Shown here: one piece after another, positions 40,671-42,691 of the stretch
How the letters are laid out: each line of letters begins with the position of its first letter
Position numbering within the stretch: position 1 is the first letter of the stretch
DNA from: an uncultured Alphaproteobacteria bacterium
GTDB lineage: Bacteria; Pseudomonadota; Alphaproteobacteria; HIMB59; GCA-002718135
Reading direction: 5' to 3'
NCBI GenBank assembly: GCA_902553945.1
Contig: CACDMT010000007.1
Location: 1-45,272 of the forward strand
Length of the DNA stretch: 45,272 bases
The notes under the pieces: generated by a model
Databases searched by the model: none
What the model was told of the DNA's origin: nothing
Seen by the model: the letters and a program-made list of their open reading frames with translations, nothing else
Position numbers and translations under genes: made by a program

Positions 40671-42101
40671 TTATGCGTCGTAATATAATTTAAACTCATG
40701 AGGGTGAGGTCTAATATTAATTGGATCAACTTCACTCTCTTTTTTATAGCTTATATAAGTATCAATAACATCCTTAGTAAATACATCTCCTTCTAATAAA
40801 AATGCATGATCTTTTTCAAGAGCGTCAAGAGACTCAGCTAACGAACCTGGGGTAGATTGGATTTTTGACAAAACTTCATCACTAGCAGCATACAAATTAA
40901 TATCTGTAGGATCGCCAGGATTAATTTTATTTTTAATTCCATCCAATCCAGCCATTAACATCGCAGAAAAAGCAAGATATGGATTTGCACTTGGGTCAGG
41001 ACATCTGAATTCCATTCTCTTAGATTTTGGACTTTGTGAATAAGCAGGTATTCTTACAGAAGCTGTTCTATTCCTTTGAGAATAAACAATATTAACAGGA
41101 GCTTCAAATCCTGGAACTAATCTCTTATAAGAGTTAGTAGTTGGAGCACAAAATGCTAGCAAAGCTGGAGCATGTTTGAGAATACCACCAATATAATTAA
41201 GTGCTAAATCACTTAAATTAGCGTAGTTACCTTTCTTATACATAAGAGTGTCACCATCTTTCCAAACACTTTGATGTACATGCATTCCAGATCCATTGTC
41301 TTCAAATAGAGGTTTTGGCATAAATGTTGCTGTCATACCATGCTGTTTAGCAACATTTTTAACTACATATTTATATTTCATCATATCATCAGCCATTTTT
41401 AATAATGGTGAGAACTCTAAATCAATTTCACATTGACCGCCTGTTGCAACTTCATGGTGATGAGCTTCAACAGTTAAGCCAATATCTTGCATGGTCATAA
41501 CCATTTCTGTTCTTACATCTTGCAAGGTATCTACAGGAGGAAGAGGAAAATACCCTTCCTTGTGTCTTGGCTTATGTCCTAAGTTAGGATTTTCATCCGA
41601 TCCACTATTCCAAGTTCCTTCAGTAGAGTCAACTTCATGAAATGCAAAGTTAGATCCAGAGTCAAATTGAACATTATTGAAGACAAAAAATTCTGCTTCA
41701 GGACCAAAGAAAGCTGTGTCTCCAATACCAGATGATTTTAGATAAGCTTCAGCCTTCTTAGCTATGTTTCTTGGATCTCTGCTATAATCTACAAGTGTAA
41801 CAGGATCTTTAATGTTACAATGTAACGCTAGAGTTTTTTCAGAAAAGAAAGGATCAATGTATGCAGTAGCAGGATCAGGTAGAACGATCATGTCACTATC
41901 CTGAATTTCCTGAAAACCTCTAACAGATGATCCATCAAAGCCTAGTCCTTCAGAAAATATATCTTCTTCTAAAAATTTAATTGGTATTGTAAAATGTTGT
42001 GTTGTTCCTGGTATATCAGTGAACCTCATATCTACCATTTTGATGTCCATATCTTTAATTTCGGACATTAAGTCTTTTGATGTAGAGCTCTTTAATTTCA
42101 T
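40671..42101 (-). CDS. glnA: Type I glutamine synthetase
   Basis: [74 protein letters not shown] 42101 chosen because AAGGAG SD lies inside the longer TTG ORF. Confidence 0.97.
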
Positions 42102-42182
42102 ATCTATCTCCTTATTCAACAAATGGATAATGTTACCACTATCCGGTTAAATCATGCTCTAGTTATGAAATCTGCTTAATGC

Positions 42183-42236
42183 GCGTTCCTTCAGCTGAGC
42201 TTACTTCCGACCTACATATTAAGTAGGTTGAACGAT
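42183..42236 (-). ncRNA. Glutamine riboswitch aptamer (glnA RNA), glnA-proximal copy
   Basis: Minus: ATCGTTCAACCTACTTAATATGTAGGTCGGAAGTAAGCTCAGCTGAAGGAACGC; conserved CGTTCA.. GUCGGAAGUA.. GAAGGAACGC. Confidence 0.92.
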
Positions 42237-42251
42237 TTATAACTTTTGCAT

Positions 42252-42308
42252 GCGTTCCTTCGGCAAAATGCCTACTTCCGACTCACATAACTTTATGAGT
42301 TGAACGAT
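42252..42308 (-). ncRNA. Glutamine riboswitch aptamer (glnA RNA), upstream copy
   Basis: Minus: ATCGTTCAACTCATAAAGTTATGTGAGTCGGAAGTAGGCATTTTGCCGAAGGAACGC; same conserved core and three-helix layout. Confidence 0.94.
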
Positions 42309-42349: not shown

Positions 42350-42691
42350 TTAGACAGCTTCACTGTCTTTTTCCCCAGTTCTTATTCTAATCACTTGTTC
42401 AATTGTTGAAACAAATATTTTTCCATCACCTATTTTTCCTGAATATGCACTAGTTTTTATACTTTCTATAACATCTTTTACTTGATCATCTTCAACAATA
42501 ACCTCTAATTTCATTTTTGCTAAAAATTCATCATCATAAGTATCGTCGGTATCTATTCCTCCTGAAGAACCTCTTTGTCTTCCAAATCCTTTTACATCAA
42601 TTACGGTCATACCTGAAATACCTTGTTCGTGTAAAGCATCTTTAACTTTAGATAATTTAAATGGTTTTATTATTGCTTCTATTTTTTTCAT
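42350..42691 (-). CDS. glnB: PII nitrogen regulatory protein with atypical T-loop
   Basis: MKKIEAIIKPFKLSKVKDAL, GMTVIDVKGFGRQRG, SGKIGDGKIFVSTIEQVIRIRTGE. Confidence 0.94.
   Translation of the reverse strand: MKKIEAIIKPFKLSKVKDALHEQGISGMTVIDVKGFGRQRGSSGGIDTDDTYDDEFLAKMKLEVIVEDDQVKDVIESIKTSAYSGKIGDGKIFVSTIEQVIRIRTGEKDSEAV

Follow-up and report, generated by a model that had tools for sequence, protein, structure and literature searches.

The glnA leader and its gene context

The window, i.e., the whole stretch of 45,272 nucleotides that was analysed, carries on its minus strand glnB and glnA, between which two glutamine aptamers follow one another (Table 1). A preceding sequence-only reading had named the flanking genes as glnB and glnA, and both identities are borne out by their profile scores. 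The nitrogen-assimilation gene glnA lies directly downstream of the aptamer pair. Where glnB ends lies a terminator-like stem, which hints at a separate promoter for the glnA leader; as judged from the nucleotide sequence, this promoter is probably located within window positions 42368-42309. Within the same interval, CTAGTAATTA is found just 5' of aptamer 1 and is common to most glnA leaders of the genus. The host is probably a marine bacterium.

Table 1. Positions of genes, aptamers and predicted pairing elements around the glnA leader of the window.
Feature	Position	Strand	Basis
Glutamine aptamer 1, distal (RF01739)	42308-42249	-	63.4 bits, E 2.6e-13
Glutamine aptamer 2, proximal (RF01739)	42236-42180	-	61.2 bits, E 1e-12
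glnA, type I glutamine synthetase, 476 aa	40671-42101	-	TIGR00653 664.8 bits, cut-off 429
glnB, PII protein with altered T-loop	42350-42691	-	PF00543 113.6 bits; T-loop alignment
Ribosome binding site AAGGAG of glnA	42108-42113	-	read from sequence
Terminator-like stem, glnB end	42352-42368	-	7 pairs, then AATTTTTCTT; consensus match only
P0 5' strand, inter-aptamer linker CAUGC AAA AGUUAU	42239-42252	-	duplex -10.9 kcal/mol with 42166-42153
P0 3' strand AUAACUagaGCAUG (AUAACU AGA GCAUG)	42153-42166	-	conserved in glnA, amt and ATP-grasp leaders
Anti-start element GAUUUCAUA-A-CUA	42160-42172	-	pairs with 42106-42094, MFE fold, z -4.14
Sequestered start region UAG-A-UAUGAAAUU, with glnA start codon 42101-42099	42094-42106	-	predicted fold
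Sequestor apical part, AUUUAAC/GUUGAAU and GGAUAGUG/CAUUAUCC	42114-42152	-	MFE fold; stem varies, pairing kept in relatives

Two complete aptamers of one class

Aptamers were identified by cmscan with Rfam 15, whereby the gathering score of RF01739 is 35 bits. The sequence-only reading had recognized two tandem glnA-type glutamine aptamers on the minus strand and proposed a check with the Rfam glnA RNA covariance model; in this search both copies exceed the gathering cut-off by more than 25 bits. Both matches are full length (model positions 1-53 of 53), no pair is broken in the cmscan alignment, and the three-helix junction with the conserved CGUUCA, CGGAAGUA and GAAGGAACG is present in both copies, which are separated by 12 nt as counted between the two Rfam matches. 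The sequence blocks shared by the copies were found as described before, and so were the P2 stems, which differ and yet stay paired (ACUCA/UGAGU and ACCUAC/GUAGGU). Assignment to the glutamine-II class (RF01704) was rejected, as the aptamers reach 16.4 bits against a cut-off of 33, hence their class is glnA type I. Besides these two aptamers, the above-threshold Rfam matches in the whole window are tRNAs. Judged by covariance model, the RF01739 elements are predicted L-glutamine aptamers, and the window leader, with two complete aptamers of the same class, is a predicted tandem riboswitch. As proposed in the sequence-only reading, such a pair may respond to glutamine more steeply or cooperatively.

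A predicted start-codon sequestor and linker helix

The expression platform had been called not obvious in the sequence-only reading, a statement that was revised here, as a predicted start-codon-sequestering fold is present 3' of aptamer 2. In this fold GAUUUCAUA (42172-42164) pairs with UAUGAAAUU (42102-42094), which places the glnA start codon inside a long predicted hairpin, and the 109 nt following aptamer 2 fold with -25.6 kcal/mol (z -4.14), none of the shuffled sequences being equally stable. The GGATA..TATCC hairpin described earlier comprises 8 pairs (42144-42125) and is the tip of this start-codon hairpin. Folding of relatives revealed pairing of the start codon with the anti-start region in 20 distinct glnA leaders, the pairing probability being 0.65 in one of them (L174) and 0.94-1.0 in the remaining ones; the 20 comprise divergent leaders with different apical hairpins. 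The mean folding z of the glnA leader class is -2.7. When compared to shuffled elements, the anti-start duplex reaches a median p of 0.003 for glnA and is less certain at the other loci, with p 0.08 in amt leaders and 0.12 in ATP-grasp leaders. In amt leaders the counterpart of the anti-start element is UUUCCAUA, which lies opposite the AUGGAG ribosome site; in ATP-grasp leaders it lies opposite the point where a short upstream reading frame begins, the frame having been read by eye.

This upstream frame, seen by eye in the CP_ATPgrasp leaders (L006, L007, L008 and others), comprises approximately 17-20 codons, follows the riboswitch and terminates at or near the start codon of the ATP-grasp gene, with a UGAUG overlap in several leaders; its arrangement suggests translational coupling to the ATP-grasp gene. 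For SAR86 leaders, an anti-SD pairing CUUCUAUAG:CUAUAGGAG was considered, which is striking in single sequences and was rejected given a set-wide median p of 0.35.

Next to the sequestor a second helix was predicted, referred to as P0, which is formed by the inter-aptamer linker and a stretch 3' of aptamer 2, encloses aptamer 2 and overlaps the anti-start element with its 3' strand. In the window, shuffled linkers reach about -3.7 kcal/mol as compared to the P0 duplex energy given in Table 1, and in 52 distinct leaders P0 amounts to -10 to -12 kcal/mol versus about -4 for shuffled linkers. The alphaproteobacterial tandem linker is nearly fixed (15-16 nt, CAUGC-A(2-4)-GUUAU-AA) and pairs with AUAAC/AUAGC..GCAUG just 3' of aptamer 2; among distinct cellular tandem pairs, 105 of 142 possess a linker of 15-16 nt. 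P0 recurs 5' of glnA, of two amt genes and of an ATP-grasp operon, whereby the pairing is kept with a G-U wobble in the amt and ATP-grasp leaders. Variants comprise a shifted register (L033), a bulged form (L136, L055, L069) and a wobble (L044), and the internal loop of glnA has one base more than that of amt on both strands. P0 was judged by per-sequence duplexes, the MAFFT alignment shifting the glnA linker by one base, and since one of its arms hardly varies, it shows only limited covariation. As AUAAC is used by both P0 and the anti-start element, the two folds exclude each other, and such an exclusive pair of P0 and sequestor is, in the modelled folds, the anatomy of a translational switch. 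The likely expression platform is a sequestor that acts on translation by hiding the start codon and cannot form together with the linker helix P0.

The suggested mechanism assumes two folds. In fold A the linker would pair with AUAACU..GCAUG to form P0, so that the anti-start element would not engage the start codon, and in fold B GAUUUCAUA, located in the same stretch, would pair with UAUGAAAUU and bury the start codon. Glutamine binding is proposed to tip the balance between the P0 and sequestor folds, most likely towards the closed one, whereby plentiful glutamine would result in less glutamine synthetase and, at the sister loci, in fewer ammonium transporters.

Distribution within the lineage

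A covariance-model search of 121 relatives identified RF01739 in 71 of 73 genus genomes, the window included, with up to eight aptamer copies per genome; the 48 order-mates, of which those listed belong to another family, gave no match. Tandem pairing is a conserved feature of the genus. A relative of 96% completeness carries eight copies arranged as four tandem pairs, which locate 5' of glnA, of two amt genes lying 2 kb apart and of an operon for a circularly permuted ATP-grasp protein (CP_ATPgrasp) and alpha-E, the downstream genes glnA, amt, CP_ATPgrasp and Alpha-E having been identified by Pfam. With one design placed before all these genes, the four loci would constitute a small regulon. 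Between the two riboswitch-controlled amt genes, a 124-aa protein is encoded in the genus (L175, 3832-4206), for which no Pfam match was obtained.

A sample of 386 genomes of the class added just four carriers, all from the same family and each with one copy. Genomes of this single-aptamer alphaproteobacterial family (L182-L185) are 1.4 Mb in size; their aptamer lies 5' of a gene that is ATP-grasp-like by sequence resemblance, and a CUCUUUC..GAAAGAG pairing is able to cover the ribosome site.

Protein sensors of glutamine

In proteobacteria, the uridylyltransferase GlnD serves as glutamine sensor, and the GlnD/PII/GlnE cascade passes the glutamine signal on to glutamine synthetase and to ammonium transport. 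GlnD was found in none of the 73 genus genomes and is present in 40 of 48 order-mates, which is the mirror image of the riboswitch distribution; the genomes are incomplete (53-96%), and the absence of GlnD from all 73 is beyond what such gaps can explain. GlnE was detected in none of the four genus genomes tested and in two of three order-mates, and as to NtrC, the genus yielded nothing beyond a relative below threshold (181-193 bits against a cut-off of 558.6). Motifs of PII and GlnA are altered. In five genus genomes compared, the PII T-loop reads RGSTGGIDTNDSYDDEF or similar where E. coli PII and the order-mates have KGHTELYRGAEY; the genus PII is without the YRGAEY loop. The GlnA proteins of the genus carry NLYAASD versus NLYDLPP in an order-mate (G073). 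In this order-mate and a further one (G075), glnB and glnA are adjacent and have no riboswitch.

Taken together, the riboswitch regulon appears to replace the covalent GlnD/GlnE cascade. The corresponding evolutionary proposal is that an RNA sensor replaced the protein glutamine sensor, whereby four tandem riboswitches, their aptamers coupled to the ribosome site via the linker helix, took over the control of nitrogen assimilation as GlnD, GlnE and the uridylylation/adenylylation motifs of PII and GlnA were lost; we regard the odds for and against it as even. GlnD and glutamine aptamers coexist elsewhere (G503, G128, G262, G359) and the contrast is a single one between two lineages, hence replacement is to be read as inference and not as a rule.

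Alternative readings and the sign of regulation

Control by transcription attenuation would require the 42144-42125 hairpin to act as an aptamer-controlled terminator, and in a pattern scan this hairpin is indeed terminator-like with its 8 pairs. However, it is followed by ATTTGTTGAA without a U tract, its counterparts in the amt and ATP-grasp leaders likewise have no U run, and the hairpin itself belongs to the larger fold that holds the start codon. A terminator at this position was accordingly rejected, and attenuation is considered highly improbable. It may further be argued that the two aptamers act independently, P0 being chance complementarity and the linker being conserved for another reason. 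The almost invariant GCAUG arm of P0 is little informative, P0 is not the lowest-energy fold of the window glnA leader, and pairs from SAR86 and phages mostly have linkers of 4-10 or 20-23 nt without CAUGC..GUUAU, all of which would fit such independence. Against this stands that P0 pairing is kept over four gene contexts and several lineages despite changes of sequence and length in both strands, and independent action of the aptamers is regarded as unlikely.

The preferred reading is that a tandem type I glutamine riboswitch controls translation of glnA, with the closed fold at high glutamine being likeliest, a model to which we assign a probability of about 0.72. Its sign is favoured on physiological grounds, about 2 to 1 for OFF over ON, as the regulated genes are glnA and amt, for which repression by glutamine is expected. 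Folding energies give no glutamine-driven closing of the glnA start codon: glnA leaders are predicted to be closed in nearly all states, and formation of the aptamers weakly favours the open fold in the leaders of amt and ATP-grasp. The same architecture could operate with opposite sign, glutamine stabilizing the aptamers and P0, opening the start and switching glnA and amt on. When both P1 helices were forced, P0 rose from about 0.5 to 0.92 (amt) and 0.83 (ATP-grasp), the start codon opening in these predictions, and pairing of the aptamer 1 GAACG with the aptamer 2 CGUUC provides a candidate unliganded fold. Moreover, in cyanobacteria glutamine riboswitches of types 1 and 2 switch expression on when they bind glutamine (PMC6316151). 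On the other hand, no shift was predicted for the glnA leader, the energy model leaves out tertiary contacts and ligand energy, and glutamine-activated glutamine synthetase and ammonium uptake would constitute a positive feedback against established nitrogen physiology. Activation by glutamine is held to be the less probable sign, albeit one with a real chance of being correct.

Relation to known systems

Tandem glnA RNAs were reported in 2010 by Weinberg et al. and glnA RNAs were linked therein to glutamine synthetase, PII and ammonium transporters (PMC2864571), hence the pair itself is not new. The arrangement described here shares with these tandem RF01739 elements the aptamer, the kinds of genes and the tandem organization, and differs by the linker-platform helix P0, the predicted start-codon sequestor and a putative four-locus regulon in a lineage without detectable GlnD. 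Within the papers searched, which leave aside Ames and Breaker 2011 and Klahn et al. 2018, neither P0 nor the start-codon platform nor the GlnD contrast was found to be described, and none was found that deals with these riboswitches in the present lineage. The cyanobacterial gifB type 1 glutamine riboswitch is an ON switch that controls a glutamine synthetase inhibitor (PMC6316151); it belongs to the same aptamer class and likewise resides in a 5' leader of nitrogen metabolism, whereas here glnA and amt would be the regulated genes. The parallel with SAM-II/SAM-V consists of two aptamers sharing a leader in a streamlined marine bacterium, or of a comparable principle for sharper control; the ligands are other ones, and SAM-II/SAM-V unites two classes, while both aptamers here belong to one. 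The GlnD/PII/GlnE cascade fulfils the same task with proteins instead of RNA.

Glutamine riboswitches were described as restricted to cyanobacteria (PMC6316151), with marine metagenome sequences and phages as exceptions, to which a regulon in a streamlined lineage is added here. As the genomes of this lineage show no GlnD, it becomes directly testable whether RNA has taken the place of a protein that senses a metabolite, and P0 would provide a concrete route by which two copies of one aptamer act as a unit, joint action of copies being a question usually left open for tandem riboswitches.

A pattern scan of named genomes, some hits of which may be chance matches, extended the tandem arrangement to records bearing the labels SAR116, SAR86, SAR92, Porticoccaceae and MarineAlpha5. 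Three SAR86 records (L043, L054, L106) contain three aptamers in a row, with linkers of 5 and 22 nt in L043 and L106. Tandem glutamine aptamers also occur on at least 118 viral contigs from IMG/VR (L210-L327), with short linkers of mostly 5-10 nt; directly after them comes a short hairpin that spans the ribosome site, the stem of which varies while its pairing is kept (CAUCU..AGAUG, CAAUCU..AGAUUG, CACUC..GAGUG).
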